Of a DNA stretch of 64,000 bases, positions 1 through 37,183 are shown one piece after another. Numbering within the stretch: the first letter of the stretch is position 1; every line of letters starts with the position of its first letter. A program made the translations under genes and the position numbers. This DNA is from Physcia stellaris. Lineage: Eukaryota; Ascomycota; Lecanoromycetes; Caliciales; Physciaceae. The stretch is taken from positions 62,001 through 126,000 of the forward strand of contig JABSSW010000006.1 of the NCBI GenBank assembly GCA_018902385.1, given 5' to 3'. The notes under the pieces were generated by a model. The model had not been told where the DNA came from, made no database searches, and saw only the letters and a list, made by a program, of their open reading frames with translations.

Positions 1-1560
1 CGACGACGAATTGAAAAAACATCGCATGAAAAAATTAATTGATAATTTGCAACATATTTATTAATCATTTGTACATATTCAATGCAACGACATAATTATT
101 AAAAAAATGAATTTTATTAATTTTATTATTTGTAAAACAATTTATTGTAAAAAAATTCGCATTTTGCGTTTTTTTTTTGTTACAAATCGTCGTTTTTTTT
201 TTTTTTGAATTTCAAATTTAATTTCGCAAAATTTCGTTTGAACGATCGTTTTTTTTCGAAACGAAAAATAACAATTGAATTTCGACACGTTTTCGTTTGA
301 ACGTCGTCAACATTTCGTTGACGTTATTCAATTTTTTTTTAATTCATTCATTATCACATAATGAATATTTTTTCAACGAATCAAATATCGAAACATTTTT
401 TTTTTCACGTCGAAAATCTTTTTTATTTTTCATTTTTCGTGATCGTTTATCAAAATTATTTTCGCAAACGATTTTGTGAATTCGTTGATATAATATTTTT
501 CGAATAAAAACACGTGAAATATTGAATGAATGCGTCATTTGAATGACAATTTTAAACGATAAATTTACGTGTCGATAACGTTTTCAATTTCAAAAAATTC
601 GATATATTTGTTCGACAATTTTTTTGATCGCATTTGATTTAAATTTTTGATCGACAACATGATTTTGTTTCAACATTGTATGTTTTCGCGAATGTTTTTT
701 TGTTGATTTATTTTGTTTGCGTTTCATTATTGTGTTTCAAATTTTTCAATAATTTTTTCGTTTATCGAACAAGTTTTGAAATTTTTGTTTCGTTGTCGAA
801 ATGTTTTGTTGAACAAAATCGAATTTAAAATTGAAATTTGAAATGTATTCGAACAAAATTTCAAACGAAATTAATTCAATAAACGTATGTTTCGCACAAT
901 TGTATACGAAAACGATCATTAACAATAATGAAATTCAATTATTTTGTTTGTGATTGCAAAAACATCGCAAATAATATTTAAAAATTTAATTTTGTTTTTT
1001 TGTTTGATTATTCGTTTGTAAATGAAAAACGATGTTAAATTTGCGTTTAATTTTTGCGTAATAACACAATGTTGATCAAAAATTGTTTGTGAACAAAAAT
1101 TTACAATTCGAAATTATGTTTTTCGATGATTTATATTTTAAAAAAACATCGTCGAAAAACAAATTACACATTTCGTTCGTTTTCATGATAAATTTTATCG
1201 AAACGTAAATTGTCATTTTTGTGTAACGATTTATTATTATTATAATCGAATCGTAAATTTTTTTGCGTCATTTGTTTGATGAAAATTTTGTAATTATATC
1301 GATAATAATTTTTTTTCATAATTTTGTCGATATCGACAATTTCGACAATTTTTCGTAAAAACGATAATAATGAATTTTTGTTTTTTGACATATCGCGCAT
1401 TTTTTGATGTATTTTTCGATGTTTTTTCGCATGTACATTCAATAAAATTTTCGTTGAATAAAATCAACGATTTTTTCAATTTCGAAATGTTTCGCAAAAA
1501 AATCGTCGTGACAACGTCGCAAAATTTCGATTTTTAAATTTGTTTCATTTAATACATATA
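1..1560 (-). mobile_element. Integrase part of an old, saturated Ty3/Gypsy fossil
   Basis: This AT-rich block is read on the minus strand. Just inside its right edge (about 1490-1580) lies a recognisable start of a Gypsy integrase: the peptide ILRRCHDD followed by a KHFEIEK-like stretch, which matches the H2C2 zinc-binding region found after RNase H in Ty3/Gypsy Pol. A conserved CAIC-like pair follows farther along. It is the downstream part of the same element whose RNase H and reverse transcriptase lie at 3781-6308; a GC-normal segment sits between them. The block is broken many times over and very old. Base composition is extreme: almost all C lies in CG or CA, and CC, CT, AG and GG are nearly absent. 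The element continues beyond the left edge of the window. Family assignment rests on motif order, which I consider safe; its exact end is not visible. Confidence 0.72.
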
Positions 1561-1611
1561 CAACACAAGTAGGCCCGGAAGTTTTTTTAAAAAAAACTTT
1601 GTCGGAAACTC

Positions 1612-1623
1612 TTAGGGTTAGGG
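1612..1623 (+). repeat. Two telomere-type TTAGGG units
   Basis: The sequence TTAGGGTTAGGG, the telomere repeat of most filamentous fungi, lies about 50 bases inside the left border of the GC-normal insertion. Two units can arise by chance or through repair of a break. No longer array is present. Confidence 0.5.
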
Positions 1624-1739
1624 TCAGATCTGATAAGATTGCAGCATCCGAAGCGGGCACAAAGTTGGCCACGGCGTAGTTTTCGAAGCCCCAGAACTAT
1701 TGCGATAATGAACCGATTTCTGTTATTTCTGCGGCGTTG

Positions 1740-1935
1740 GAATGCGCTCATTTCGCTTTACAATTCTGGCTAGATGAGTGAGAATCATAAGTGGTTGTTG
1801 ATTGGGGTGCAAGATGCGAAGCAACTGTACGGCGCAATAAGTTCGGTGGTTGAGCGCCAAGTAGACCCTGAGCTAGCCAGATCGGGAAAGAGTGCCGCAA
1901 ATCAACTTGATGAGAGTCTGAATGCCAGGCATGGA
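1740..1935 (+). repeat. Left copy of a diverged peptide-level repeat (GVQxAK family)
   Basis: The plus-strand frame around 1770-1840 encodes a stretch with NHKWLLIGVQDAKQL. A related stretch, NHIKFLVGVQSAKKL, lies at 3680-3730 in the same orientation. Similarity extends upstream (LISLYN against LIKLYN), so the two regions share an ancestor. The left copy has a stop just before the shared core and no good start. Its function and family are unknown to me. The pair flanks the 395-codon gene, so they may be ends of one transposable unit or remnants of a duplicated gene. Confidence 0.4.
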
Positions 1936-2250
1936 GTCTCGCATGGAGTCTGAACTGCAGAAATTGCAGTCATTTGGTCACATCTTCGAGGCATATCATG
2001 GTTCTCGATTGGGTATAGCGCAATAGGGTATCAGGATGTATTTGCCCTGATATCGGCCATTCTGGATACTATGTACATATGCTGGTCCCAGAATTCTGAC
2101 TGGCCTGGCCATCTGCGGCGGAGATATCGAGAATATGCCATACAAATCGGGCCTGTTTCTCCAGCGAGGTCTTCTGGCTTATTAAGACCCCAAAAGCTCG
2201 AATCTGCAGTCTTTGCATCGGTGTATGCCTGCGGAAGTGATCCGCGCATG

Positions 2251-2346
2251 GAGGCATTTGCTGGGGCATTTGCTGGGGCATTTGGTGAGGCATTTGATGA
2301 GGCATTTGGTGGAGCATTTGGTGGAGCATTTGATAAGGCAATTCGT
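2251..2346 (+). repeat. 12-bp minisatellite, eight units
   Basis: Eight consecutive 12-base units of the form GRGGCATTTGST run without a gap and end immediately before the stop codon of the minus-strand gene at 2352. Being a multiple of three, the array is open in several frames, which creates spurious reading frames (repeating GAFG on plus, HQMP or KCST types on minus). I regard these frames as artefacts of the repeat. Confidence 0.9.
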
Positions 2347-2351
2347 GGAGG

Positions 2352-3539
2352 TTATATCGACCATGGCATACTCGAGTAAAGCTCTCTTTTTTGCTTCCAT
2401 TTATGCTCGTCTGCTTCGGTTCTCAATTCAACCAACTCGCTCCATTGCACTCCTTCGTCGTCGTCAGAACGATTGTCAGAATCGATCGATTCGTCGGTCA
2501 TATATGTATCGTCCGACTCATCAGAATCATCCGGCTCGTCTGGCCAAGCTGAATGCTTTTCCCTTTCTATTCTTGCTGCCTCCGCATTTACTCTTTCGTT
2601 CGCCTCTTTCGCTCGCTTGATATCTTTTGCAAGCTGAATTTCTTCGCGAGTTGGAATATTGTGTGGAGGATCAAGTTTCCATCTCTTTCGTTGCATTGCA
2701 TTGCAAGCGTATTTCGTCAACGGTTTAAGAAGAAAACGACTGCTATGTCTGACTATTTCCTCCCTCATATGCAAGCGAATTCCGTCCTCATCGTTGGCTC
2801 GAACAGCGGTAGAAAGAGGAGAGTAATACTTCTTGAATTTGCAATGAGCATAACCACTCCATACAGAACGCTCCGTCCAAGGTTGAAAACGAAAATGCTC
2901 TTGAAACAAAGCCCCTCCAGACAGTCCTAACCGATATTCGAGATCCGAAGAAAGTTCTCCATTGATTCGTATGATTTCAGATCGTTCCAATCGCCAAAAG
3001 TATTGAAAGATCTGACCCTCCCAAGCTTCCTGATCCTTTTGCAGCAGTTTTTGCTGTGATTCCACTTGAGAACGCGTATGTGTCTTAACCTTTGAAACAT
3101 CGAATGCAACGTCAAACATGGGACGTGCTTTAGTCATTGGATCCTGAATAATAGCTGGCTGTGGGACCGGGTAGATTCCAGGCTCTTGTCTATCCAACAT
3201 CATTCCATTTCGGCCATTGATTGTGTAGTGAGGCTCTCGAAACTCGACGGGTGTTTGAGGTGTAACAGTCATTGAATGACATTCGTAGGGAGCGCTGATT
3301 TCGATCGATGCAGAAGTCGAAGTAAAGGTAGAAGTAGGAGTAGGAGTAGGAGTAAGTTTCTGGAGAGCACCCCGTTTCTCTCGCTCTTTGGCATGGCGAT
3401 TTGCTGCACCACGCGAACGCGCCGTAGTAGAAAGGCCTAAATCCAACGTCAGCTGCATGATTTGTTGGGATTCGTTGAAATTCTCGTGGTTGAGTTGATA
3501 TGGAGTTGAAGTTGATGTTGTTGTTGGTGTTTGGATCAT
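2352..3539 (-). CDS. Uncharacterised 395-residue protein with acidic tail
   Basis: A single uninterrupted minus-strand frame in ordinary codon usage. I do not recognise the family. In order: a Thr/Ser-rich N-terminus; a short basic patch near residues 45-60 (RSRGAANRHAKEREKR) reminiscent of the basic region of a bZIP but with no following leucine zipper; a Thr/Pro/Ser low-complexity tract made from a GTAGGA-like simple repeat; a central globular part (about 130-300) rich in aromatic and charged residues; an alpha-helical charged segment (KDIKRAKEANERVNAEAAR) likely to be coiled coil; and a strongly acidic Asp/Ser tail. No signal peptide or membrane span is seen. It is the only long frame of the GC-normal insertion in the Gypsy fossil, so it may be cargo of a mobile unit or a captured host gene. 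Start at 3539 is the first Met; a later one is possible. Confidence 0.55.
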   Translation of the reverse strand: MIQTPTTTSTSTPYQLNHENFNESQQIMQLTLDLGLSTTARSRGAANRHAKEREKRGALQKLTPTPTPTSTFTSTSASIEISAPYECHSMTVTPQTPVEFREPHYTINGRNGMMLDRQEPGIYPVPQPAIIQDPMTKARPMFDVAFDVSKVKTHTRSQVESQQKLLQKDQEAWEGQIFQYFWRLERSEIIRINGELSSDLEYRLGLSGGALFQEHFRFQPWTERSVWSGYAHCKFKKYYSPLSTAVRANDEDGIRLHMREEIVRHSSRFLLKPLTKYACNAMQRKRWKLDPPHNIPTREEIQLAKDIKRAKEANERVNAEAARIEREKHSAWPDEPDDSDESDDTYMTDESIDSDNRSDDDEGVQWSELVELRTEADEHKWKQKRELYSSMPWSI

Positions 3540-3639
3540 CGAACCCCGAATCCATCAATTTGTATGCGATCAAAACTCCGCAATTCAATAACTCGATGCG
3601 CCCACGTCAGAATTTAACAAACGCTACAGTATTGATTCC

Positions 3640-3775
3640 CCTCATTAAACTCTACAACTTTGACTACATAAACAAAAATCATATCAAGTTCTTGGTTGGT
3701 GTGCAAAGTGCGAAAAAGCTGCACCAAAACTTTGATGTTCTTCGCCAAGATTGGTCTAACCCAATAAGGAAGTAA
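3640..3775 (+). repeat. Right copy of the GVQxAK peptide-level repeat
   Basis: Partner of the stretch at 1740-1935, same orientation. The frame ends at a stop near 3775, beside the right border of the insertion. The shared core reads LIxLYN, then NH, then L-V/I-GVQ-D/S-AK-Q/K-L. Similarity is clearer in peptide than in DNA, which suggests former coding sequence rather than a recent duplication. Confidence 0.4.
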
Positions 3776-3780
3776 ACTTT

Positions 3781-6308
3781 TTGTAGAGGGAACGATAGAT
3801 ATTTTTTTATAGGTTGTGTTCTATATTAATATCGTAAAATATTGTTCGAATTTAACGTTCAATTTTTAAATTTTTTGTCGTTTCGTATAAACGCGCGACG
3901 TTTTACGCATTTATTGTCGAATATTTGCAATTTTTCAATTTTGTTGAAAAATTTTTTGAAATGAATTTTCGTACGAATTTTTTTGTCATACGTTTCAACA
4001 ATTTTTTTCGACGCATTGTTTGCGATATCGCGACAATTTCGTTTTGAAAATTTTTTTTTGAAAATTTTTCGTCAAAATTTTTTCGCATTGTTTCGATTTT
4101 GTTGAAAACGCGATATTCGTAATTACGATGTTTCGAAATTTGTTTTGCAATATGAACAAACAAACGCCATCGTTTTCGTTTTCGTTTTCGTAATTTGAAC
4201 GTCGAAATGATTCGTTTGTCGAATTGAAATTTTCATTTTTGTATTTGATTTCGAAATCATATTCATTTAACAATAAAATTTATTTAATTTGTCGTTTGTT
4301 CAAAAAACGTGATAAACATGAAATATTTCAAATTGTTATGATTCGACATTACGATAATCGTAAATTGATTATTTTTTAAATAATAACGTTATTGTTTGAA
4401 ATTTTTCACGATAACGAACAATTTTTGATCGTGCGTTGAATATTTAATTTCGACAAATATCATTTTTTTTGAATAAAAAACGACGAAATGTTATTGCGTT
4501 TAATTTTCGATATCGAAATTTTTTATCAATTGCAAAATTATTTTTGCGATAACGAATTTTGAAATATCGATTTCAATCATTGTTCGATTATTGAAATCGA
4601 AATATATCAATATAAACGTTTTCGTGAATATACGAATGAATTTTTTGAAAATTTTTATTATTTTATCGTTTCAAATGTATTCGTCAATTTGTTTTTCGTT
4701 TTTGTTATTTTTTAATAATTCAAAAAATAAACGCGACATTTTTGCATATTTTACAATGAATTTTCGATAAAAATTTGCGAATTTCAAAAAATTTTGCAAT
4801 TTTTCAAATTGTCAAAAATCGATCATGATTTGATCGAAATTTTTTTTTTATATTTATGAATATTTTTTTGTTATTGATGATATAATTTAAAAATTCGATG
4901 AATTTTTGCATAAATCGACATTTAATCAAATTGACGAAAAAATTGAATTTTCGAAAACGTTTAAATATCGTTTTTACATAATGTCAATTTTTTTTTCGTT
5001 CGAAAATAAATCAAAATGTCGTTTAAAAACAATACGCATAATTTGTTTATCAATTTTGCAAACATTTTGTTTATAAAAAATTGAAAAATCGTCGACGCGT
5101 TGACAAAATCGAAAAATATTACGACGTATTCGAAAAATCGTATCGTGTTCGAAATGCGATTTTTTATTTGTCATTCGTTTTGATTTTTATACGATAATAC
5201 GCGTTTTTCAAATTTAATTTGATGAAATACGTTGCGTTCATCAAACGATTCAATGTTTCGTCAATCAACAACAATGAAATTTTGTTTTTGATCGTGATCG
5301 CGTTCAAATTTTTGTAATTCACGCAAAATTTTAAATTTTCGTTTTTTTTGAAAATGAACAATATCGACGCATCGACATCGACAATCGAATATTTAATACG
5401 ATTCAACGCAAAATTTTCGCGAATATATTTTTGAAAAATTTTTAATTTTTTTTGAAACATGTTGTACAAAAATTCGAAAAATGAAAATTTGTTCGATATT
5501 AAATCAATGATATAATCGTATTCGTCGTGCAAAAAAAACATAATCGTCGATTTGAAAAAAAACATATTTTCGAATGTTTGCAATTCATTCGAAATTTCGA
5601 TCAACGTTTTGTCGTTTTTTCGTATAATACATATCAACGCATATATTGAAATGATATTATCGTTTAACATTGTCGTGAAATTTTCGAAAATGTTTAATTT
5701 CAATCGATTTTTTTTAATAATGTAACGTCACGTTATCGTGAATCAATATACATGTGAATTGTTTTTCATCATTTATGAAAAATTCATTATCAAAAAATAC
5801 ATCAAATTTTGAAATGAATAAAATTTTTGCATCGAAATGAAAAAATTATTTTTGTTATCACGAACGTTCATTTTCATTTAATACGTATTAATGAAAAATT
5901 TGTTTTCAATATCGAAATTATTTATTTTCATGAACGTTTCGTCGATATTTTGCAAATTTCATTTTTTCGTTAACGATTTCGAAATGCAATTTATGTCAAC
6001 GATCGAATTCATGAAATTCATTTGCGATTGTTATTTTTTAAAAATATTGACGTTGACGCGAATGAATATGTTATTTGATTAAATTTTGTGTGAATTCGTC
6101 ACGATAACGACGATTATCGCAACAAATTTTTTCAATTTTTCGAATCGTTTTTGATTTCGATAAATTTTGAAAATGTTTTATTTTTATTTTTGCGAATCGC
6201 GTTGACGTCGACGATTGTTTTTTTTTTTTTTGAATAAAAACAATTTTTTTTTTTTATGTTTCGATTCATCGCAATTGTAACAATTTCGATTTTTTTCGTC
6301 GACGAATC
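3781..6308 (-). mobile_element. Reverse transcriptase and RNase H part of the old Ty3/Gypsy fossil
   Basis: AT-rich, saturated block on the minus strand. At 5164-5703 a 179-codon stretch matches the start of Ty3/Gypsy reverse transcriptase: an HDEYDYIIDL opening, then FCVNYKNLNAITIKN, LLLIDETLNRL and a KLNLKNAYYRIKIK segment. At about 4160-4270 LNEYDFEIKYKNENFN matches the end of Gypsy RNase H. Near 6250-6300 a CYNC zinc-knuckle motif marks the end of gag; the young LTR element inserted just beside it. The order gag, RT, RNase H, integrase is that of Ty3/Gypsy. The copy is broken many times and very old. Composition shows almost no CC, CT, AG or GG. Confidence 0.85.
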
Positions 6309-6503
6309 TGTGAGGTGCCATGCATTGGTATGGTACTAATACATAACTACACGAGGATATCGAAGTGGGGAGCAAATACATGGAGGCCTGCAGAGGCATA
6401 TGTAGGAGGTTTGGTCATAGGCGGGTCCCGGCCCTGCCACCCGGTGTGATAAGATAAGGGTGTTAGCCCTGCCAGGTGTTGGATCCGGTGCACGCTCGTC
6501 ACA
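6309..6503 (-). repeat. LTR of the young element, left copy
   Basis: 195 bases, TGTGAGG to CGTCACA on the plus strand. It is the downstream LTR given the element's leftward direction. It is preceded by GAATC and is nearly identical to 12446-12640. Confidence 0.93.
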
Positions 6504-6510
6504 TTACCCC

Positions 6511-8290
6511 CCGTTCCCTCTCAGCTTCGCCCCGAAGCGATCAACTGAATCCCTCTCTCCTTATCGGTGGGCGCCCCATGCGGCCTCGATGGCTTGTTGA
6601 ATGGCGTTCAAGCGGGCGGTCGTTGGAGCAGGAAAAGCCAACAAAGATGCGAAAGCAGTGGAGAAAGCCAACGGTCATTAGTAAGCAGTTGAGGACCTTG
6701 TTGAGGACCTTGTTGACCAATCTGTATGCATTTCGAGCTTCAGACACCTTGTTGCTCTGCACCTTGTTACGTCTTCATAGTTCAGTAAGACCGGGCAACA
6801 GCCTCTGGAGGTGCTTCTGGCACGGTTCAGCCCTCCATGCGCCGTAAGTCCTGGCTGTAAGTAACGCAGAGGCGGTAGCGTATTAGAGGCCAGCATGAAG
6901 GTGAGTGTGTAACGAATCTGAGGTTGACGTGGTGCCTTCTGACTGATTACAGACATCAAAACCATCTCAGCTTCGCTCCGAAGGGATTAACCCATTGCTC
7001 CTCCTCCTCTCATCGGTCGGCAGGGTACGTGGTCTTGGTGGCTTGTTCGTAGATGTTTAAAGTCCATAGCGGACGCGACAGCCGTGGGGACGTGCAGGGG
7101 TCTGGGGTGGAGCCGGCGGAGACGGCGGAGACGGCGGAGACGGAGGAGAAGGCTGAGAAGGCTCCTGCATGCCTATGTGGCTAGCATTTGCGAGGACCGT
7201 TGGACGTCAGAGATACCTGGCGTTTAGTATGGTGAAACGGCCGTTTTCTCTGAGCATGGAGGCCTCCCAGGAAGCTTGCGTTTGAATCGAGATGTGAAAG
7301 GATTATTAAGGCATGGGATAAGCGGAGGATATCGCGTCATTTCGTATGGTGAAAAGGCGTTTTCTCCTGCAGATTCCTGAGCATGCATGCGATGTTCATT
7401 AGTGGTTAGTACAAATACAGAGTAGGAAAGGTGGAAACGTTCTCGGATTTCAGTCCGAAGTCTGACTGCGAGGCATGGGCCATGGTACCTGCGAGTAAGT
7501 GGTATGATAGGCCATTTGGAAGTACCTGAAACCCGAAAACCTTGAAGCAGGCTGGTCGAGGCGAGGAGATTGCTCAACGCTCTGAGCCTCTGATCAAGGT
7601 AGCGATTCGCTTCTATCAGGCTTTCGGTGTGGGTAGAGGTACCTGTACTTTGGTGGCGGATGCAGGCCTATGCGAGGTACCTGAGGCCGAGGTCATTGCA
7701 GCTGATAAAGGGACTGGTCTGCAGTCAACTCGTAGAGGATGTAGGCGGTGACATAGGTGATGAAGTAAGCAGTTGCAACACCAGGCCGGTTATACGATGA
7801 GACGAGCAGTTTCGTCATGTTGGTAGAACCTTCGCAACAGCGCTTAATGCATTGATACTTACGCATATGCGAGAGTTGATGTGTACATTGCATCCAACAG
7901 AGCATGAGTGTAATGGACCTTCTGGAAGGTGGCCAGTCCATACAATCTTTTACGAGTAGCTCCGGCGGCCATTAGTAAGCCTTGAGGATCCTTGAAAACC
8001 TTAGACCGATTATACCATGAGACAAGCAGTTTCAGTGTATTAGCAGAACCCGCGTAACAACGATTAACGCATCGATACTTGGGCGCATGCGATAGTCGAT
8101 GTGTACGATTCATCCAGTAGAACGTGTATGCAATAAACCTTTTTGAAGGTGTTTCGTGACTGGATATTGGAGCATTTTATCCCTCGTCTCTTCTCAGCTT
8201 CGTCCCGAAGCGACAAATTCAATATCGGCACGGCCAATGGCCGAAATGGCTTGTTGATAGGCGCTAATACAGCCCATCCTTGCAGCGGAC
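6511..8290. repeat. Diverged repeats in the downstream part of the young element
   Basis: A motif of the form CTCAGCTTCG-YCCGAAG followed some 60 bases later by GGCTTGTTG recurs near 6515, 6965 and 8180, all in the same orientation. A second family is a diverged tandem pair: about 7785-7930 and 8005-8155 share GATGAGAC-AGCAGTTTC, a GATACTT stretch and TCGATGTGTAC-like sequence, offset by about 220 bases. No convincing gene lies here; short frames are repeat artefacts. Repeat-built non-coding flanks are common in non-autonomous LTR elements. Confidence 0.6.
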
Positions 8291-9693
8291 ATGGCCGAAA
8301 CGAATGCGAGAGCAAGGAGGAAGGCCGGAAGAAGGCGGAGAAGTATGGAAATGAAGGAGACGGCTTCTGCAGCCTTATTCGGATTCGAAGGCTTCAAATG
8401 GCAGGAGACATCTGGCAATTTGTATGGTAAATCGGCCAATTTCTCAGGCAAGCTTCTGCTGAAGGCAGTGCGGATTGATTCCGCAGGCATGTGCTGCCTC
8501 GAAGTCTTCGGTTTTGAACCTTTCGAGGTCTGATTAATTGGCGGCTTCTGATTGGCTGTAGGCTTGAAGTAGGCGGTGATTTGCATTTGGCCTGAGGATG
8601 CTTGGGAAGATTCGTGGTTTTGGCTCTGAAATAGGTCCTTTCTCCTGGATTTCCCATCGAACATGCGGCCCAGGTTATGCATAGTGAGATAAGGCTTCTT
8701 CGGAGTTGAGGAGCACGGCTGCGAAGATTGACGAGGACCGAAGCCTTGCGGAGAGGGTCGTCGATTATGGTGCTGCCGCAGGCCAAATGGACTTGGCTTC
8801 CCATGAAACATGCGGCCTAGGTCATCCATAGTGAGATAAGGCTCATTGTGAGGCATCTGGTGTTTTCGAACCGGAGCCTGAGAAGGTGAGGTTGGAGGAG
8901 TAAGTGGACAACTGGCGACTGCGCTCTCCAACGGCTTTGGGCTGATTTTGTATGGCGCAATCGGGAGACCCGAACGCGTTGGTGCGGCAACTGGTTCGGA
9001 GTTTATTGAAAACCAGGATATCTGACTTCTTGGTGTTGCAGGGGGGGTAGGTGGTTTCTGCGGAGTAAGCGGAGCAGGCGGGCGGATGCCTGCTGGCTTC
9101 TCAATGGTTTTGTATGTGAGTTCTGGTGTGGGGACTCGGGGATTCAAGCTTTTGACAGGCTTTCGAGCATGATGTTCGCGTATATGCTCGTGAAGCTTGT
9201 TATTGGAGTTGAATATCTGGTTGCAACGCCGGCATGTCGTTGACCTCTCCGTTGATTTCGACATAGTTTCGAATGTGGGGAACGAGAGATTTGAGCGTTC
9301 CAGTAGAGTGACTGTCCTGGGTGCTATTGCAGACTCGGACATGGGCTTTGGAGCAAGAAATTTATGCAGAGTGGATGACGTCTCCTCGATTTCGCATACT
9401 GAATTGACTGCATAGACCGAGAGATGAGAGTCCTCGGCTTGCTTCTGAGCTTCCTGCTTTGGTTGATATGCATGACGAGCGAGTTGATGCTCTATCCTAT
9501 TGCGTAGTGCTTCATGACACGAAGGAGATTCAAGATAATGCTCTTGAAGTGAAGAAACATCGATTCGGCAGGTGGGACAACTCCTTTTGAAGACTAAAGG
9601 GGGTGGATGGTTTCTGCGAAGTAAGCGAAGCAGACTGGCAAGTGACAGCTGTAGAGCACTGAGTTGACATATTCTCCACCGGCTCTGATACAA
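8194..9693 (-). CDS. Element-borne zinc-finger protein frame (downstream frame)
   Basis: A 499-codon frame inside the young LTR element. It overlaps the upstream frame (9530-11194) by about 160 bases in another reading phase. Modules: a C2HC-type finger near residues 40-60 (CPTCRIDV then HYLESPSC); a C2H2 finger near 145-170 (CRRCNQIF then HEHIREHH); then a long Pro/Ser/Thr/Lys-rich region with two repeats containing PYLTM-DLGRMF-GK. The fingers are close relatives of those in the upstream frame and in the decayed 3.4-kb elements farther along the window. In LTR elements such proteins are expected to bind element RNA or DNA; that role is inferred. I see no enzyme domain. Confidence 0.65.
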   Translation of the reverse strand: MYQSRWRICQLSALQLSLASLLRLLRRNHPPPLVFKRSCPTCRIDVSSLQEHYLESPSCHEALRNRIEHQLARHAYQPKQEAQKQAEDSHLSVYAVNSVCEIEETSSTLHKFLAPKPMSESAIAPRTVTLLERSNLSFPTFETMSKSTERSTTCRRCNQIFNSNNKLHEHIREHHARKPVKSLNPRVPTPELTYKTIEKPAGIRPPAPLTPQKPPTPPATPRSQISWFSINSEPVAAPTRSGLPIAPYKISPKPLESAVASCPLTPPTSPSQAPVRKHQMPHNEPYLTMDDLGRMFHGKPSPFGLRQHHNRRPSPQGFGPRQSSQPCSSTPKKPYLTMHNLGRMFDGKSRRKDLFQSQNHESSQASSGQMQITAYFKPTANQKPPINQTSKGSKPKTSRQHMPAESIRTAFSRSLPEKLADLPYKLPDVSCHLKPSNPNKAAEAVSFISILLRLLPAFLLALAFVSAMSAARMGCISAYQQAISAIGRADIEFVASGRS

Positions 9694-11194
9694 TATCTAG
9701 TGCACTAAATGGGAGATGCGAGACCCTCGATGAAGTGACTGCCCTGGAGGTCAATGCTGACTCAAATATCTGCTTTGGTGTCGCAGTAGGAGCTTGCAGC
9801 TCTGGCGAATCAAAGGAGCGTTGAATAGATGCACTCTCTGTCGATTCGGGTATGTATTCAAGTGTAAGAGACGAGAGACTTGAACACTCTGATGAGGTGA
9901 CTGGTTCGGAGGTTGATGCAGATTCGGGTATCTGACTAGATGTTGCAGGCTTTCGAACAAGGATTTCTTGATCTTCTGACTCGAGCGGTGTGGTGGAGGT
10001 CCACGAAGCAGAAGAGCATTGAATTGGCTCGTTCTCCATCGACTGTAGTGCATTACTGGCTGTCGCGATCGGGAGAACCGAACTCGCTGGTGAGATAATT
10101 GCTTCGAAAGCTACCTCAGATTCCGATACATGCTTTCGTGGTGTTGCGGGGAAGGCAAGCGATTCTTGCAGAGCAGGCGAATCGAGCAGGCAGATGACTG
10201 CTGACTTCTCGACGGCTTCGCATGCTGATTTGGCTGTATTGATCATGAGATCCGAGTTGCTGGCCGGCTTCTTCGCATGCTGATTGCGTACATGGTTGCG
10301 AAGCTTGTCTTTGGAGTTGAAACTTGAATCACAACGCATGCAGGTCACTTTCGAAGTTTTGACCTTTGCGAATGGAGCATTCGCGAAATCGACTCGTAAG
10401 GCTTCAACCCACTCACTTAGCGATGCTGATTCCATGATTGTTTGTTTATTGAACCAGATATCGAAAGCAGGGCCATACAGGCATGATGGCAATAGGGAGA
10501 GCAGATCTGACTCCCTATACTGATGCTGACATTGCTGAAGATGTTGTAGGAAGTCTGTAGCTTCGTCAAATCGTCGATCTTCGCATGTGAGTGTTGGATC
10601 GAAGATGCCGATATCCTGAAGCTCTGGTGTTGGTTTCAATCCTTGTTGTTTCTGAGGACCAGACGGAGTAGATATTGCTGATTTCTCAATGATCTCGCTC
10701 GCATGTCCTTCAAGAAATTGTAAGGCGGATTCGTATGCTTGCTGGTTTTGAGCATCACATGAAGGATATTGCAGACGATGTGATTCCCAAGTCTCGTAAG
10801 CTAGGTGACACCATTGACAGCGATCTGAAGTTGAGCCTTCAAACTCCTGTTGTTCCTGCGGAGCCGTTGAATTCTTTGCAGGCTCACTAGGAGGGAATGC
10901 TTTCGCAAGGGCTATACCGAAATCGTGTAATGAGGTGAACTTCGGTTGACTCTTGAACCAATCCAGGGCGGGACCCATCAAGCAGCCGTGTAACAGATCC
11001 AGCAAATCCGACTCTCGATGCAGGAGCTGAAGCTGCTGAAGCCGTTGTAAAATGCCTGTGGATTTGCTAAATATGTCCCATTCTGGATCATCGTCGATGG
11101 CAGTTGGGTTGAAGAGGCCGAAATATGCAGGGGGGGCAGGCTTCGCATCTTCAACTCGCTTCCGGGCTTCTCGCTTTTGTTGTTTCGGAGTCAT
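9530..11194 (-). CDS. Element-borne gag-like protein with duplicated capsid-like module
   Basis: A 554-codon frame, first long frame of the young LTR element. Residues about 25-100 carry a capsid-like module (FGLFNPT, then a helix ending RESDLLDLLHGCL, then GPALDWFKSQ and a LHDFGIALAKAF tail) resembling retrotransposon gag. A C2HC finger (CQWC then HRLQYPSC) follows. A second copy of the capsid-like module (FDPT, YRESDLLSLLPSCL, GPAFDIWFNKQ) lies at about 195-270, followed by a C2H2 finger (CMRCDSSF then HVRNQHAKK). The rest is Ser/Thr/Pro-rich with short imperfect repeats. The arrangement suggests an internal duplication of [capsid + finger]. Start is the first Met; it lies about 1.25 kb from the upstream LTR. 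Confidence 0.7.
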   Translation of the reverse strand: MTPKQQKREARKRVEDAKPAPPAYFGLFNPTAIDDDPEWDIFSKSTGILQRLQQLQLLHRESDLLDLLHGCLMGPALDWFKSQPKFTSLHDFGIALAKAFPPSEPAKNSTAPQEQQEFEGSTSDRCQWCHLAYETWESHRLQYPSCDAQNQQAYESALQFLEGHASEIIEKSAISTPSGPQKQQGLKPTPELQDIGIFDPTLTCEDRRFDEATDFLQHLQQCQHQYRESDLLSLLPSCLYGPAFDIWFNKQTIMESASLSEWVEALRVDFANAPFAKVKTSKVTCMRCDSSFNSKDKLRNHVRNQHAKKPASNSDLMINTAKSACEAVEKSAVICLLDSPALQESLAFPATPRKHVSESEVAFEAIISPASSVLPIATASNALQSMENEPIQCSSASWTSTTPLESEDQEILVRKPATSSQIPESASTSEPVTSSECSSLSSLTLEYIPESTESASIQRSFDSPELQAPTATPKQIFESALTSRAVTSSRVSHLPFSALDIVSEPVENMSTQCSTAVTCQSASLTSQKPSTPFSLQKELSHLPNRCFFTSRALS

Positions 11195-11239
11195 CGCGCA
11201 TGCGGGAGAAGAAAGACGATTTGCTAGGCAAACAGATGT

Positions 11240-11960
11240 GATTCTAGAATATTCTCAAGCAAGAAGGATGGTGTGGATATCGAGTGCTAAGGGAGAGCTC
11301 TGCTAGAAAGTTCTTGACGTTTCTGACTTGGTATTGAGTCTAACCCCGAGACAGGAGACAAATGCTGATTTGCTAGGTAGATAGGTAGGAAAAAAAAAAA
11401 AAAAAAAAACTCCCGGGTGAGGAGGATAGTTGTAATACTTGGGGCTGACGGAGGTTCGAGCGATCTTTGAAATCGATACTGAGGCTACCGCTGAGGCCAG
11501 AGAGTATGGCCGATCGGTAAGAAAGACAGGTATGTCTTGGCAATGTTCTCGAAGAAGGTGGATGGTCCCAGTACTGGGTTCTTGTCGAAGTATTGGACGG
11601 AGGTATGAGGGTTTTGAAGGACTATTATTGAGTCCACCACCGAGCTAGGAGAGGGAGGGCCTTTGACTAGATAAACGGAGGTAATTTCGGGAGGTTCTCA
11701 ACAAAGGTAGATGATTCCTGTATCAAGTTTCTGACGAATCGTAGATTGAATGTTCGAAAATTTCTTGATTCGAGATGTTGTTGATTTTTTTTGACGTGAT
11801 ACTCAGCTCACTTCCGGAGCTTCCTGATTGAAGTATTAAAGCAATCGAGTAGATAGGAGAGGATGATCGAGTTGCTAGTAAGGTAGATATGCTTCTGAAG
11901 GATTCTCGAAGGAGGTAGATGGTTCGAGTTCAACGATTCTGGCCGAATAACGGGGTTTCT
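11240..11960. repeat. Degenerate tandem repeats upstream of the gag-like frame
   Basis: A phrase containing TTCTCRA-G-AGGTRGATGGTTC recurs near 11245, 11545, 11690 and 11905 with spacing of roughly 150-300 bases. Between copies the sequence drifts. A run of about 20 A lies at 11391-11410. I see no gene. The region is the long leader between the upstream LTR and the first frame. Confidence 0.5.
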
Positions 11961-12445
11961 GGTTCGACCTCTGGTCGGATATTTCTGATATGGTGTTTTC
12001 GTGACGTAGGGGTTCGTTGACTTGGTGGCCTAGGCCTGGTTTATTGCTTAATGGTTATGCTGTCACAAGTGACTCCGAACGCCATCTACATGGCCTGTCG
12101 GTTAAATAGGTGCGTAATTAACGCTCGAGGGTATCAAACAACCGTCGCTTCGGTCACAGCTTACAACTACGTCGTCGTCTCGCTGAGTACCGGAATGGCC
12201 CTTCCGTGGAAGTCCACACTCGAAGCCTTTGCTTCCTGAGGAGTGACCTGCGTGGAGTAGAGCTTCGTTGCTCTCACTCAAACCGCCTAGGCTTTTGACC
12301 TCACGTGAGCAGAACTACGTCGTTCTCGCTAGCACGTCTAGGATTTGGTGACGTCTTAGGTCTTCGCGTTTGTTTGGGGTCTTGTTTATTGAATAAGCTG
12401 TCGTACCCCGAGCAGCTTGAAGGGATTAGGATGACTTCGATATAA

Positions 12446-12640
12446 TGTGAGGTGCCATGCATTGGTATGGTACTAATACATAACTACACGAGGATATCGA
12501 AGTGGGGAGCAAATACATGGAGGCCTGCAGAGGCATATGTAGGAGGTTTGGTCATAGGCGGGGCCCGGCCCTGCCACCCGGTGTGATAAGATAAGGGTGT
12601 TAGCCCTGCCAGGTGTTGGATCCGGTGCACGCTCGTCACA
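12446..12640 (-). repeat. LTR of the young element, right copy (upstream LTR)
   Basis: 195 bases, direct repeat of 6309-6503 with one visible difference. It is followed at once by GAATC, the target duplication, and then by mutated Gypsy fossil sequence. Confidence 0.93.
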
Positions 12641-14010
12641 GAATCGACGTCGTTTTTTTGTTTTTATTAAATTGATTTTTCGTTTTATCAAATTGCGCAA
12701 AAAAATCATTTTTGACGAAATTTTTGTTTTTTTGACGTTCACGATTTTCGAACGAAAAAATTTGCGAAAATCGAAAACGTTTTGAAAATTTTTGATAAAA
12801 TGACGATCGTTTCGCATTGACGATTTTGATCAAATTTTTTTGACGAATCGTCAACGAAATTGCATCGAATATAATAATTTTTCGTAAAATATCGTTCAAA
12901 TCATAAAAAAATTTGTTTCGTTTGATGTTTTCGATAACGTTCAATTTTGTTTTCAACGATTCGAAATGCGTCGCGAATTTATTTATCGTTTTTTTGTTTG
13001 ACATCATTGTATTTTTGATTCACATCAAAACGAAAAATTTTAAAAAATTCGACATCGTTGTAAAAAAATTTCGAAAAATACGATTACGTCATCATTAATT
13101 TTATTCGATGTTGATTGATTTTTGATACGATTTTTATAATTTGATTGAAATCGTATCAAAAAACTGTTACGTTCAAACGATTTTAATACAACGTTTGAAA
13201 AAATAATTAAAATTTGCGTCGAAAATTTACACGACGTTTCAAATTCACGATTGAAATTTTTAATATTTTTGACGTTGTAAATGAATAAATTTTAAATTTG
13301 AATTCGATAATTCGTCGAAAACGCGAACGTTTCGAAATAAATTTATTACGAAATTTTTCGTTATCGTCATTGTCATCGTCGTTTTCGTTATTGAAAAACG
13401 TTTGTAAACGTTTTCGTTTTTTTTTAACAACGCGAATTGAATTAATTTCGTTTTTTCGAAATGACGTTTACAAAACGTTTAATTTTTTTCAAAAACAATT
13501 TATATTCACGTTTGTTTTTCGTTTTTTTTTCAATTATCGTTTGAATTGTTCGCAATTGTACGTAATCAATTTAATTATCGAATTCGAAATCGTCGACGTT
13601 CGTTAAAACGATAATAATACGTCGAAACGACACGCGAAAAACAACAACAATGCGTTCGTCGTTTGATGAATTTTCATGAATTGAAATCAATTCGTTTCGT
13701 TGATCGATTTCAAATTGAAACGATTTCACGATCGTGTTGTCGAATGATAATTGTTGAAACGAAATAACAATATTGTTTCGAATCACGAACGCAACGACAA
13801 CAAATGTTTTCGAAATTTTAAATGATGTCATTTGATCGAACAATCGTTCACGAAAATTTAAACGATTCAAAATTGTAAAAAAATATACGATTGAATGATT
13901 AAATGATTACAAACAAACGCAATGTTTACGAAACGATAATAAATCATCGTGATAACATTGTGAATAATGATAAAATTGAATCGTGAAAACGAAAAAAAAT
14001 GAAAATTCTC
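12641..14010 (-). mobile_element. Gag part of the old Ty3/Gypsy fossil
   Basis: AT-rich saturated block, read on the minus strand. At about 12640-13007 a frame with a FATHFESL stretch, long charged helices and a Lys/Arg/Asn-rich end resembles the C-terminal half of Gypsy gag, directly before the CYNC knuckle found at 6250-6300 on the other side of the young insertion. Farther upstream (13571-13870) another frame of unclear identity may be gag or leader. I could not find a clear LTR at the right edge; decay may hide it. Old and broken many times. Confidence 0.6.
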
Positions 14011-22321: not shown

Positions 22322-22812
22322 AGCAGCGAATTAACCTGCGTAAAGTCGGAAGTTACTGGTCTGAGAGAATTTCGTGATTGATTTCCTTGAGGTAGCAAAC
22401 GTCGAAGCGCAAGAGTGGGAAATATCACAAGTGGGGAATGTTTCTATACTGCAGACGTTTTATAATTATAGTACTGTTAAATACGTCTAGCTCAGCTCGG
22501 ATAATCTGACGAACTCAAATTGAATTTCACAAAACAAAATTCAAAAAGAAACAAACGATAATCCGATTCGGAAAAAGCATAAATTTTAGAGTTTTATTCA
22601 TGTCGATTCATGTTACGAAATTTCAGAGACGAATAATTTTGATTTGATGCGTATTGTGAATGATTGACTGTGATAAATTCTAATGAACTAAATGTATTGT
22701 AATTATAAAACGTTTGCAATATAGAAACTTTTCAAACGAATCGTGCATATTCAAATTACGTGATTCATTACGTCACGCGTCAACGATTCAATCATTTGAC
22801 AAATTCGTATTC
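22322..22812. other. Border between F-box gene and second repeat island
   Basis: Base composition falls from normal to AT-rich between about 22450 and 22560. The AT-rich part still contains some CC/GG and CT/AG, so it is less altered than the Gypsy fossil. No gene. Confidence 0.5.
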
Positions 22813-23012
22813 TGTTGAAAATACAATCTTCGCAGATGTGTTGCAATCAGAATTCAATTAATATAATCTGACGAAAAAAAAAATTAATGCGTTTTTGTTG
22901 AAATTAGTGTCTTGACATTCGTACACTTTTTGTCTTTTCGTTTGCATGTAACTTATTTAGAACAACGAGATTCAGAACAATAAAATGATAGTCATTCATG
23001 ATTTTTTCAATA
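22813..23012 (+). repeat. Left LTR of copy A
   Basis: 200 bases. It shares its ends and most of its sequence with 26008-26206 and with the reverse complements of 27595-27794 and 30790-30989. Confidence 0.85.
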
Positions 23013-24995
23013 GATTATGAGAATCGAATTAACATTTTCGCTACATTTAATATCAGTTACAACATGAGCGCACGTAATATTTAGTCGTCAGACAGTACAG
23101 CAGAGTTTGCAGTACAAACAGTAATCAACTTCATTGAAAGTATTCAGTCAGATCAGATCAGAACGACTCAATTGCATATCGCAATATTCAGTATCTTGAT
23201 ACAAACGATCAATACATTCAGTATTTTCAATTACGTCGATAACATTTATCTATTTATTCTTTACGAATTTCTCACGAATTCGTTTATTTACGAACTTTTT
23301 GCGAATTTTTTACGAATTCGCGTATATCTACTCGAATCTTTACGCGAAATCTATTTATCATTCAATCAAAATGACGATTTCTACTTTTACGACACTTGAT
23401 TTTTTATTTTTTTCGTTTGTTCTTTGCGATCACGTATTTGAAAATCATCTCATGACGCAAAATCTTAAAACGCTGTATAACTTGTCATTTAATTGAAAAT
23501 GCTAAGATTTTGAGATGCAATTGATTCACTCAAACGAAAAAAACACAAAAAAATTATCATTTACGAAAACATGAATTGAAAATCAAAAACAAACTCAAAA
23601 AGAAAATGAAACAATTGACAAAACAAAAAAAAAAATTCGTCTGATCAAAAAACGAACAAAAAAATATACGTGCAAACGTTGCAAACATTCGATCAAATTC
23701 GATAACAACATTAAATTTCACAAACATATTCGTACTCGTCATGTCAAAAAGTCGAAATCGAAATCTGCTTAGCAATTTGTTGAGCATGTGATTTCATTTT
23801 TTATTTCTGTTTCGTCATTTGAATCGATAATTTTCTCATTTTTTCGTCGAAACTTTTATTTTTCTCGATTTTTACATCAGAAAATGTACGCGAGCGTTCA
23901 GAAAACGTATCATTTTTTTTGTCATCGAAATCGATAGTCGAGTCACTAGTTATTTTCTCAAATATCTTGTCGATTGCAACATCAAAAAAATCGATATTTT
24001 GAGCAAAAATTGTCTCACGATCAGTCGTTGCATCGAAGTTCTCTCGTCTCTCGATTGCGACACTCAAATCGATGTGCAAATTCTCGAAAAACGCAAACGT
24101 TGTTTGTTCGTCTATTTCGTTTCGAACTTTTACATCATCGAAATTTTATTTGATCGTGAACGATTTGTTTCGCATGTTCGTTGAAAAGTCGAATTCATTT
24201 GATTTGCAATCAAATCAAAACAAATCGTTGTTTTTTCGCAATTTCGACAAATGCAATTTCGTCAACAAATGTGATTTCATACAAAATCGCATTACGTTAT
24301 ATTTTCATGCGATGATCACATTTGTTTTCAAATCAATCAAATTCGAAACATTTGAATCAACACATGTTCGCGAAAACGTTTCGCGTCAATTTTCGATTTT
24401 TCATTCGATTTCATTTATTTCGTTTTCTTTTCGATTTTCAATGATTTTTCGTTCGTTTTCTGTTTGCAAACATTGTCAAGAGCGTTTCGTCATTTATTGA
24501 TTTGTCGATTGAGTCATGTCAAATGTTTCAAGAATTGAAAACAATGAAATACTCAAAGAAATGCGCTATTGACGTTTCGTTTCTCTTCACTTTATTTTGA
24601 GAAAGTATTGATTTTTTCGAAATCATTACTCTGAGAAAGTTACAGCATGTTGTTTGTTTGTTTTGCTCGTTTTTTTTTTTTATTAATCGTTGATCGATCG
24701 TGATCTGAAAAAACATAAAAGTTGTTGTTTTAATGAATTCGATATCTCGTTTTTTCGCTCTATTTCGATTTGAAAAAACTTAAAAGTTTGTATGCTTTGT
24801 TTTATTGTTTAACGAATATGATAAAGATTTATCTCTGTTGTGATTTCGTCTTGATTTAACACGATTAATTATCGTCTCTTTCTCTACTATTTTTGAGACT
24901 TAGTCGTCCGATAAATACGAAAAGGAAAGAATGAATACAGTCGTCGTACTTGACGTACTGTACGAACAGTTGTTAAAAGAAAAAACAAACTAAAT

Positions 24996-25180
24996 TGTAT
25001 CGCTTCGAAAAAGCGTACTATTCAGTCATTACACACTCGGAACTCGATGAAATCAAATAATATCGTTTCGGAAAAACGTACTATACAGTCAAGCAATACA
25101 GCTTCGAAAAAGCGTACTGTACAGATACAATTATGAAGTCACATAATATCGCTTCGAAAAAGCGTATTATGCAATCATAT
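24996..25180 (+). repeat. Tandem hairpin repeats inside copy A
   Basis: Four units, 40-60 bases apart, each contain a short hairpin of the form CGCTTCGAAAAAGCG followed by TACTRT. The inverted copy B has the matching block at about 28600-28740 in a more altered state, in which the stems pair less well. The block lies in the non-coding downstream half of the element. Confidence 0.6.
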
Positions 25181-25789
25181 TACATATTCGATCTTGCAAA
25201 ACAGAAACTCGATCAAAAACTCAAAAATCGATCAAGAAGAACAAATAATGTTGAAAATATTTGATCTTTTCGCATATTAATCGATCTGATTCTCTGACAA
25301 ATTTTAGTCACGTCAAAAAAGCTCGAATTTGCACTCATTGCATCGATGTATGTTCGCAAAAATCTGTTCGCACTCGATGCATTATTTTTTTCATCGATTT
25401 CTTGATCATTTTTCATATCGTTGACATATTTATCGAAATTTCTACAGTCAAATCACTAAATATTGATTCATTGATGTCGCAAAAAATATTTGAGAATTTT
25501 GAAATTCACAATGATGTTATCAAATCATGATGTGATTTGCATTCTCGTTCAATATCGCAAAATTCAAACAATTGATACTTGTTTCATGATGTATTTTCTA
25601 GTCAATTCTAAATATCAGATTTCACATCGATGTTTTATTTCGTGAAGAAATTCAAAACGTTTTCAATTGTTCGATCGCACGTTTTACAATTCGATTTTAC
25701 GTCACATTTGAAGTCAATAAAACATCGAATTTCGATTCGTTCGTTTTTGCAATTTTTGCATCGATGTATGATTTAACTCTACAAAATTT

Positions 25790-25950
25790 ACGTCATTGAA
25801 AGAGCTTGCTCGAAAGTTTCAAACAATACATCGTTGAGAAAATTCTAAAATACGCGTCGTTGAGAAAACTCTAGAATACGCATCGCTGAAAAAGTCACAT
25901 CGTTGAAAAAACAGAATTTACATCGTTGAAAAAATTTGCACGAAAACTTC
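25790..25950 (+). repeat. Tandem CATCGTTGAAAAA repeats inside copy A
   Basis: A core CATCGTTGAAAAA or close variant recurs about six times at irregular spacing of 20-35 bases. The counterpart in copy B is at about 27865-27975. Confidence 0.5.
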
Positions 25951-26007
25951 AAATGATCAATTCGTTAAAATACAAAACAGATAACACAAACGATTGCTGT
26001 GAAAAAA

Positions 26008-26206
26008 TGTTGAAAATACAGTTTTCGCAAATGTGTTGCAATCAGAATTCAATTGATATAATTTGACGAAACAGAAACTAATGCGTTTTTGTTGAAATTA
26101 GTGTCTTGACACTCGCACATTTCTTGTGCTTTTATCTGCATGTAACTTATTTAGAACAACGAAATTCAAAGCAATAAAATGATAATCACTCATGATTTTT
26201 TCAATA
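26008..26206 (+). repeat. Right LTR of copy A
   Basis: 199 bases, TGTTGAAAA to TTCAATA, preceded by a short purine-rich GTGAAAAAA run that could be the polypurine tract. Confidence 0.85.
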
Positions 26207-26540
26207 TATGCAATTGAATTTCTTAACTGAAACAAGATCTTATACGGAATCATAATGCGCTGACTTGGTGACTATCGGGAAATAGCTGCTTAAGAAAAAA
26301 ACTCTGAAAATTTTCATCGTTAATTCAATACAAAAATGATTTTTTAACGTGAAAAACACGATTTGCGAATAAATTTTATTTCGAAACAATTTATTTCGTA
26401 TTCAATTTAAAAATTTTGAAATACGACGAAAATTTTGAAACAATTTTCAAATCAACTGTTTGATTATCATACAATTTATCATACAAATTGAACAATTGAA
26501 TCAGAAATTGTTCAAAATTTGATAACATTGTCACGTTGAT

Positions 26541-26780
26541 TTCGTAACACGTTGTTTCGTTGAATTGCAAATTTCGTAATATATACGTTGTTTCGTTGAA
26601 TTGCAAATTTCGTAATTGATTTCGTAACACGTTGTCTCGTTGAATTGCAAATTTCGTAATATATACGCTGTTTCGTTGAATTGCAAATTTCGTAATTGAT
26701 TTCGTAACACGTTGTCTCGTTGAATTGCAAATCTCGTAATATATACGTTGTTTCGTTGAATTGCAAATTTCGTAACAATA
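26541..26780 (+). repeat. 80-bp minisatellite, three units
   Basis: TTCGTAACACGTTG recurs at 26541, 26621 and 26701, exactly 80 bases apart. Each unit is made of two similar halves sharing TTTCGTTGAATTGCAAATTT. The frames seen here on the minus strand (repeating KFAIQR or EICNST) are products of the repeat and are not genes. Confidence 0.9.
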
Positions 26781-26883
26781 ATGCAATCAACGATATGCGA
26801 CATGCGACATGCGACGAATTAAAAACGACGTTAAAAAAAACGCTAAAAAGAATTCTTGTATGTATGTTGTGTATATGCATATT

Positions 26884-26945
26884 GTATAACATAACATGAC
26901 ATGACATGTCATATCATGTCATGTCATGTCATATTATGATATGAA
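26884..26945. repeat. ATGAC/GTCAT palindromic microsatellite
   Basis: Short tandem ATGAC units run into the inverted GTCAT units, giving a strong potential hairpin. At the equivalent place unit 2 has a TAACAATG simple repeat and unit 3 a TAGCTAG-like tract, so this point of the satellite unit is a hotspot for simple repeats. Confidence 0.7.
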
Positions 26946-27594
26946 AAATGTTGATTTCATCAAGAATCAATTGAATCATGTTGCAACGAAACGTTCGATT
27001 TTTGCGATTTGAACGTAATTATGTATATATTCGAACGCAAAATCATCAACGTCTCAACGTATAATCGTGAATTGTCAATAATGTGATGTTTCGTACAACA
27101 AAACGATGATGATGATAACAAAACGATAATGTCAAATGAAAATGACAAAAGTCGTGATATTCGATAATTTCAATTTTAAAATAAAACGTTGTTGCAATTT
27201 GCAAACGTTTATCTTGTTAATTCAATACAAAAATTATTTTCTAGCGTGAAATGCACGATTTTCGAATAAATTTGATTTCGAAACAGTTTATTTCGTATTT
27301 CGTCTAAGAATTTCTGAAATAAAACGAAAATTCAAAAAGAATTTTCAAGTTAAATCGTTTGATTATCATACAATTTATCATACAAAGTGAACAATCGAAT
27401 CAGAAATATTGCTCAATATTGCGTATGTTTTTCATTGACAATTACAGTTATTTTATGTTTTGACATGAATTCATGTCAAAACATGAAATTATTACAAACA
27501 TATCATTCATTTTTACTGTTGATGTCGTTGTTGTCATGTTGAACAATTGTGAAAATATTTTGCAATACAAATTAATATAAAAAATGACATGAAA

Positions 27595-27794
27595 TATTGA
27601 ACGAATGTGAATGATTGTCATTGCATTGCATGCAATATTATCGAAATTACGTAACATACATACAAAATGAAAACACAAGAAATGTGCGAATGTCAAAACA
27701 TTAATTTCAACAAAAACGCATTAATTTTGTTTTCGTCAAATTTTATCAACTGAATTCTGATTGCAACACATTCGCGAAAATTGTATTTTCAACA
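27595..27794 (-). repeat. LTR of copy B, left
   Basis: 200 bases, read TATTGAA to TTTTCAACA on plus, i.e. TGTTGAAAA to TTCAATA on minus. Confidence 0.88.
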
Positions 27795-30789: not shown

Positions 30790-30989
30790 TATTGAACGAA
30801 TGTGAATGATTGTCATTGCATTGCATGCAATATTATCGAAATTACGTAACATACATGCAGAATGAAAACACAAAAAATGTGCGAATGTCAAGACATTAAT
30901 TTCAACAAAAACACATTAATTTTGTTTTCGTCAAATTATATCAACTGAATTCTGATTGCAACACATTCGCGAAAACTGTATTTTCAACA
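30790..30989 (-). repeat. LTR of copy B, right
   Basis: 200 bases, direct repeat of 27595-27794, followed by the TGAAA target duplication. Confidence 0.88.
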
Positions 30990-36643: not shown

Positions 36644-37183
36644 GGTGACTTTTTGTGAGGAGGAAGTATGCCCGGTAGAATTGAGGAAAGACAATACTGA
36701 TGTAGGGTAGGTATAAGTATGACTGTACTTCACATGGGGGGTGACTGTCCGAGATATAAAAGTATTTGGATGCAGCTGAATCACCAAATGACGGTGATGA
36801 CGGGCGGCACGGCGTCTTGGCACGAGAAGGCTGAGTAATCCCGATGCTCGGATCTCGGAGCTTCGGACCAAGATGCTCCGATACGATGAATCTAACTTCA
36901 ATTCTAAGCGAGATTCACTCGAGTGTCAGGGTCCACGCCGGGTGTTTGGGCTTCACGCTGAGCGTCAAATGAAAACATGTACGGGACTGGAGTCGTTTGC
37001 TTTCAATCCATCAGAGATGCTTGTTATCTGCTTTCTCCAGGCGCAGTAGGTACTGTCGAACTGCCCGTTATTTCTGTTCGCTCTTTGTTTTCTATTCCTT
37101 AGCATCCCTGGCGCGAGAAAGAGGACCTTGAGCTGTACATCCCTTCAGCACATGTACAACATTCACATTGTGTAGCACACGGC
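36644..37183. promoter_or_regulatory. Divergent intergenic region, Sec14-like and STE23-like genes
   Basis: 540 bases separate two head-to-head starts, so the region must hold both promoters. Several pyrimidine-rich tracts precede the STE23-like start (37079-37140). I cannot name a specific factor site. Confidence 0.5.

Follow-up and report, generated by a model that had tools for sequence, protein, structure and literature searches.

Hypermutation of cytosines before pyrimidines in Physcia stellaris repeats points to a RIP-type process with an inverted 3′ preference

Repeats of the ascomycete Physcia stellaris carry dense C-to-T changes at cytosines followed by a pyrimidine (CpY), at CpC first and at CpT second. 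The pattern was found in a 64,000-nucleotide stretch of contig JABSSW010000006.1 (assembly GCA_018902385.1, positions 62,001 to 126,000), here called the window and numbered from its first letter. We followed it into loci fetched from the 44 Mb genome (L numbers) and into five 8 kb stretches from arbitrary positions in it. The changes are almost exclusively transitions, fall on multi-copy DNA in the stretches tested, end abruptly at block edges in the window and come in bursts, CpY changes running into the hundreds where other changes are almost lacking. Judged from these sequence comparisons, the process is probably a form of repeat-induced point mutation (RIP) whose 3′ preference is inverted and which would depend on RID-like enzymes.

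Results

Three blocks in the first 14 kb of the window have lost nearly all CpC and CpT. With both strands pooled and expected counts taken from base composition, positions 1–1560 contain 0 CC (43 expected) and 2 CT (140), together with 179 CA (140) and 184 CG (43). The corresponding counts are 1 CC (74), 0 CT (228), 259 CA (228) and 344 CG (74) at 3839–6308, and 0 CC (49), 1 CT (134), 134 CA (134) and 232 CG (49) at 12641–14007. CC and CT summed come to 2, 1 and 1 against 183, 302 and 183 expected, which bears out the near-total loss with frequent CA and CG that an initial annotation had noted by eye. A run of 2,141 bp (4168–6308) is free of CC, CT, AG and GG, while the longest such gap in 32200–64000 is 34 bp. 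Ordinary DNA within the window has CC and CT at the normal level, and the counts of CA and of CG per 500 bp are about equal in mutated and ordinary DNA, as expected if little except C before C or T was removed.

The same trend appears in the fetched loci and arbitrary stretches. From the 0.50 to the 0.20 bin of GC content, mean counts per 500-bp window fall from 57 to 0 for CC and from 68 to 4 for CT, with CA (68 to 56) and CG (54 to 46) declining only slightly; L005 and L016, which lie inside the window, are omitted here, and the set contains overlapping loci and loci picked as repeats, so that it is no random sample of the genome. Two patterns had been named in the annotation as contrary to the idea, CpA depletion in repeats as strong as that of CpT and CpC, and the same CC/CT deficit in unique genes. 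Neither occurred in the DNA examined, in which DNA of ordinary GC content has no such deficit.

The target and the order of change can be read most directly from a repeat of about 2.2 kb, one copy of which lies in the window. For this copy 27 near-full-length relatives were listed at 69–96% identity, and 12 were fetched: all 8 at 69–87%, 2 of 16 at 91–92% and 2 of 3 at 95–96%. Six of the 12 are unmutated (L050–L055) and six are CpY-mutated (L056–L061). The window copy and the six unmutated ones, which agree at 1,818 of 2,158 columns, served as the reference. C-to-T changes in L056 occupy 134 of 135 CpC, 84 of 166 CpT, 2 of 245 CpA and 1 of 160 CpG sites; in L057 the counts are 132/134, 103/165, 2/242 and 0/160, in L058 135/135, 151/164, 14/242 and 2/159, and in L059, the most mutated, 133/133, 154/158, 48/244 and 3/160. 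The two strands agree in these comparisons, in line with the symmetry first seen in the window.

The order CpC, CpT, CpA, CpG reads as a time course in these four younger copies. The initial annotation had CpC and CpT disappearing together and CpA and CpG almost completely spared. Both CpC and CpT do fall, but CpC goes before CpT, as it also does at 22500–31900 of the window, where by 500-bp counts hardly any CC is left and CT is partly depleted; and CpA is not depleted like CpC or CpT, yet about a fifth of it is lost in L059. CpA ranks third of the four sites in L058 and L059 and is near zero in L056 and L057, so that the CpA preference usual, though not universal, for RIP is absent. Calculated from −ln of surviving sites, CpT is favoured over CpA ~86-fold in L056 and ~118-fold in L057 (with only two CpA events in each), ~42-fold in L058 and ~17-fold in L059, and the discrimination for CpC is higher still. 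Five saturated copies of the element at the left of the window, compared pairwise, still show C/T differences, at 17% of sites for CpA and 4% for CpG. The step from CpA to CpG is drawn from L058, L059 and these five copies, because none is seen in L060 and L061 or in the second family described below.

The changes are also remarkably pure. L056 has 221 C-to-T changes, no transversion at C/G, changes at 3 of 1,022 A/T sites, and 6 non-CpY changes over 1,728 scored sites, so that C:G to T:A transitions are nearly exclusive; L057 has no A/T change. CpY changes relate to all others as 218:6 in L056, 235:2 in L057, 286:21 in L058 and 287:57 in L059. The two oldest copies have more ordinary change: L060 (CC 116/131, CT 112/161, CA 21/239, CG 18/158) carries 129 other changes and L061 (CC 118/131, CT 118/152, CA 19/238, CG 18/158) 127. 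Slow spontaneous deamination of methylated CpC and CpT cytosines in silenced repeats, without an active mutator, would likewise give changes at C/G that are almost all transitions, and the genome has methyltransferase genes. Ordinary mutations would then be expected alongside, however, and L056 and L057 hold 6 and 2 of them; CpC saturation and the unmutated insertions within a mutated element favour episodes as well. We consider slow decay improbable.

The second family is an element of the long terminal repeat (LTR) type, represented in the window at 6309–12640. This copy was taken as the reference for six copies elsewhere, of which four were pooled and the little-mutated L039 and L041 were left out of the pool. 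Across the four 5′ bases, the C-to-T fraction in the pool is 0.58–0.74 at CpC, 0.34–0.41 at CpT and 0.06–0.09 at CpA and CpG, giving the order CpC > CpT >> CpA, CpG. A small excess in the same sense is present in L039 (−ln survival 0.16 at CpC, 0.11 at CpT, 0.06 at CpA, 0.09 at CpG) and L041 (0.24, 0.13, 0.10, 0.11).

The AT-rich blocks might be thought to be elements of odd native composition or an artefact of assembly, and no unmutated copy of the element at the left of the window has been seen. Two other families, however, have both unmutated and mutated copies, and L042 differs from its reference by 643 C-to-T against 82 T-to-C changes; an assembly artefact should not respect the boundaries of repeats. 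For the 2.2 kb repeat and the LTR-type element this explanation is refuted, and overall we give it hardly any weight.

Neighbouring bases other than the 3′ one matter little. In four 2.2 kb copies pooled, CpT conversion ranges over 0.59–0.70 across −1 bases and 0.60–0.72 across +2 bases, and it is almost entirely the 3′ base that determines the target. This bears on deaminases of the APOBEC/AID kind and on ultraviolet damage at dipyrimidines. The C-to-T changes do fall at dipyrimidine sites, and PF00383, a general deaminase family, has eight matches in the genome. For APOBEC/AID deaminases and ultraviolet damage, however, the main determinant is the base 5′ of the C. Here the 5′ base has little effect on rates, and TpC persists ahead of a purine (TC observed/expected 1.26–1.42 in the three window blocks). 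Such an origin is very improbable.

Mutation goes with multi-copy DNA in the stretches tested. Among the five arbitrary 8 kb stretches, L049 is mutated throughout and L047 over about its first 5–6 kb. The other three are ordinary for most or all of their length; one of these, L048, includes 2 kb of AT-rich DNA in which CpY is only partly depleted. The mutated segments L047:501–4500 and L049:1001–5000, chosen regardless of content, have at least 43 and at least 39 further matches in the genome. Conversely, the M16 peptidase gene at 37103–40657 of the window and the 5 kb segment L046:1001–6000 each match only themselves, and both have normal CC and CT. Multi-copy DNA is thus hit and single-copy DNA spared in these stretches, with the untouched 2.2 kb copies as an exception.

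The usual RIP indices measure CpA loss and TpA gain, so that a process preferring CpC first escapes them. None of 315 CpC-depleted 1 kb windows falls within the combined standard cut-offs as given in the available text of PMC2621366 and PMC7882544, and none passes the composite index; the looser substrate cut-off (≤ 1.03) taken alone admits 5 of 315 and the other four cut-offs none. The scan used overlapping windows and left out L001–L005, L016 and L050–L061. Ordinary RIP directed at CpA or CpG, or decay of CpG, would suit AT-rich multi-copy repeats in a genome with RID-like genes. The index scan and the L056 counts refute it for the copies examined, and we assign it a practically negligible probability.

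A search of the genome with PF00145 returned three cytosine methyltransferase genes, one DIM-2-like and two RID/Masc1-like, so that candidate homologues of both enzymes named in the initial annotation are present. Motifs I, IV, VI, VIII, IX and X are found in all three. L001 has PPCQ, EET in motif VI and a target recognition domain (TRD) of ~76 residues by eye on the spliced model; L003 has PPCQ, EQT and a TRD of ~83 residues, measured in the same way. The two genes have an intron position in common, and their modelled splicing preserves all main motifs; the intron edge of L003 is less certain than that of L001, and the L003 open reading frame (ORF) extends past the fetched locus. PCQ, EQT or EET in place of the ENV triad, and a TRD of ~80 residues are peculiar to the Masc1/RID group, as stated in the available text of PMC6709928, and by these features L001 and L003 are predicted Masc1/RID-like methyltransferases. 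L002 has the ENV triad in its ORF, and its best match among solved chains is 9bap (E = 2e-181), which, going by the abstract of PMC11315935, we take to be Neurospora DIM-2. By triad and closest relation L002 is a putative DIM-2-like methyltransferase. L003 also has a long N-terminal part and a linker without counterpart in L001.

The layout of the window adds a history. The initial annotation had mutated repeats running across 1–14010. The three saturated blocks stand, but about 1569–3821 and 6309–12640 are unmutated insertions. The left block (1–1568) has at least 14 further matches in the genome at 89–94% identity that cover nearly all of 1–1560, and the middle block (3822–6308) at least 15 further full-length matches at 90–93%; four copies of the latter (L035–L038) are likewise saturated, with CC 0 and CT 1–11. 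Because their matches elsewhere lie 21–22 bp apart, side by side (for example in C3, C7 and C88), the two blocks are parts of one repeat. The 2.2 kb copy that separates them (1569–3821, edges approximate) is normal in GC and CpY. The 6.3 kb LTR-type element has normal CpY and terminal repeats (6309–6503 and 12446–12640) with 1 difference over 195 positions, and is flanked on the forward strand by the target-site duplication GAATC at 6304–6308 and 12641–12645. The block at 12641–14008 is the continuation of the mutated DNA beyond this insertion and ends abruptly at ordinary DNA, CpY sites being back at about 14008. This layering, with unmutated insertions inside a mutated element, suggests that saturation of the element preceded the two insertions, which have gone untreated since. 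For the element of 1–1568 and 3822–6308 itself, a history of mutation is deduced from the signature it shares with the other families and is to that extent presumptive.

The partly mutated repeats at 22500–31900, which include an inverted pair, belong to a different family from this element. Thirty loci of the family at 23000–26200, two of them inside the window, have a GC content of 24–35%, with 0–10 CC and 10–90 CT per kb. The region also contains an 80-bp unit repeated three times (26536–26775) and a short catgt-type simple repeat (about 26885–26935).

None of the three longest ORFs in the two unmutated insertions matched a Pfam family: one of 400 residues in the 2.2 kb copy (2352–3554, minus strand), and two on the minus strand of the LTR-type element (8194–9696 and 9530–11254). 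The LTR-type element may be non-autonomous, because no polymerase was seen in its two long ORFs, the only frames scanned. Two tandem TTAGGG units (1612–1623) lie close to the left boundary of the 2.2 kb insertion.

Discussion

Our results suggest a repeat-directed process of the RIP type that would convert C to T without regard to strand, beginning at CpC and proceeding to CpT, with CpA following much later and CpG scarcely affected. RIP in Neurospora takes place in the sexual phase, ahead of meiosis, and requires RID; repeat recognition and sexual-phase action are presumed here by analogy. One or both of the RID/Masc1-like enzymes would be the mutator, possibly with participation of the DIM-2-like enzyme. 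The initial annotation had proposed a methyltransferase or other mutator with an altered 3′ context; comparison of unmutated with mutated copies supports it as far as C-to-T change set by a 3′ pyrimidine goes, and the enzyme is one that we infer.

Several observations weigh against this proposal. No unmutated copy of the element in 1–1568 and 3822–6308 was seen, although a saturated query may miss one. CpA and CpG change in the LTR-element copies at about the level of ordinary divergence, and CpA and CpG loss do not differ in L060 and L061. A strand-run test for single-pass action gave |z| < 1.4 in five of six LTR-element copies and a weak signal in L044 (z −2.8). The window copy of the 2.2 kb repeat is untouched, and so are L050–L055, the six copies fetched from 21 further near-full-length ones listed at 86–96% identity, L052 and L053 being 99.8% identical; at present, therefore, the process does not reach every repeat of the isolate. 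With 19 of the 27 listed relatives of the window copy at 91–96% identity, the family seems to have expanded recently and to have been left alone so far. The untouched near-identical copies would also fit a recent burst without sex.

A further difficulty is the ratio of CpC to CpT change, which varies between copies in a way that a single enzyme of fixed ratio does not predict. Expressed as −ln survival in L040, L042, L043, L044, L056 and L057, it is ~2 in L043 and L044 and ~7 in L056. At a CpT loss of about half in both (~0.48 in L044, 0.51 in L056), CpC loss is ~0.73 in L044 and 0.99 in L056. L044 shows an even loss over almost the entire copy, and its ratio is not accounted for by position. 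The variation hints at two separable activities, for example one RID-like paralogue at CpC and another enzyme at CpT, with a DIM-2-like enzyme perhaps adding CpA; that the two RID-like genes carry different triads would agree with this. The hint is weakened by the diverged reference of L044, which may distort its ratio. CpC and CpT are, moreover, both down in every mutated copy examined, and a graded single enzyme fits L056–L059. We regard two activities as rather unlikely.

The proposed RIP-type process resembles ascomycete RIP in its strand-symmetrical C-to-T and G-to-A changes, its saturation of multi-copy DNA with ordinary stretches spared where tested, and the presence of RID and DIM-2 relatives. 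It differs in its 3′ preference, which as CpC > CpT >> CpA > CpG inverts those given in the available text of PMC5496416 for Neurospora crassa (CpA > CpT > CpG > CpC) and Trichoderma reesei ('CpA~CpG CpT>CpC'). Botrytis cinerea, Sclerotinia sclerotiorum and Magnaporthe oryzae likewise combine a prominent CpT signature with a RID/Masc1-like gene, but there CpT goes with CpA, whereas the leading site here is CpC and fresh copies have lost almost no CpA. Basidiomycota such as Microbotryum also have C-to-T changes in transposable elements, but at CpG, the least affected site in L057–L059. Both comparisons draw on the available text of PMC4352252, which describes CpA, CpT and CpG signatures among ten fungal genomes and reports none at CpC, a word absent from its main text. 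No report of CpC-led RIP was found in the open-access literature searched. RIP targets repeats above a threshold of length and identity, the length being given as 400 bp or more in the available text of PMC3017866; here, near-identical 2.2 kb copies are unmutated. The two predicted Masc1/RID-like enzymes, with PPCQ, EET or EQT and a short TRD, look like known members of that group and would differ from them in target preference, if one of them is the mutator.

The choice of target has consequences for coding sequence. CpY change yields stop codons mainly from TGG, and CAA, CAG and CGA never become stops by this route. In a calculation on one 1,185-codon ORF, full conversion of CpA created 72 stops and that of CpC and CpT 18, all from CpC. 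So few stops mean that long frames can survive in saturated repeats, and the suggestion that the sparing of CpA explains such frames holds in this calculation. If the proposed process is real, repeats would be wrecked while nonsense codons arise almost only from tryptophan codons.

The 3′ pyrimidine, C in preference to T, may be read by an enzyme of the RID family or by two paralogues dividing CpC and CpT between them; that this is a genuinely new mode of target reading is conceivable, at somewhat less than an even chance. A 2025 survey of 1,239 fungi (PMC12543289) holds, in its available text, that a CpA preference is common to RIP-like defences, and the P. stellaris repeats would be a strong counter-example. 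The same process may go unnoticed in other genomes that have been classed as free of RIP. We know of no convincing activity of RID in the test tube. What sets the target of RID, a long-open question, would become testable here, and a comparison of the two P. stellaris paralogues with Neurospora RID could answer it.

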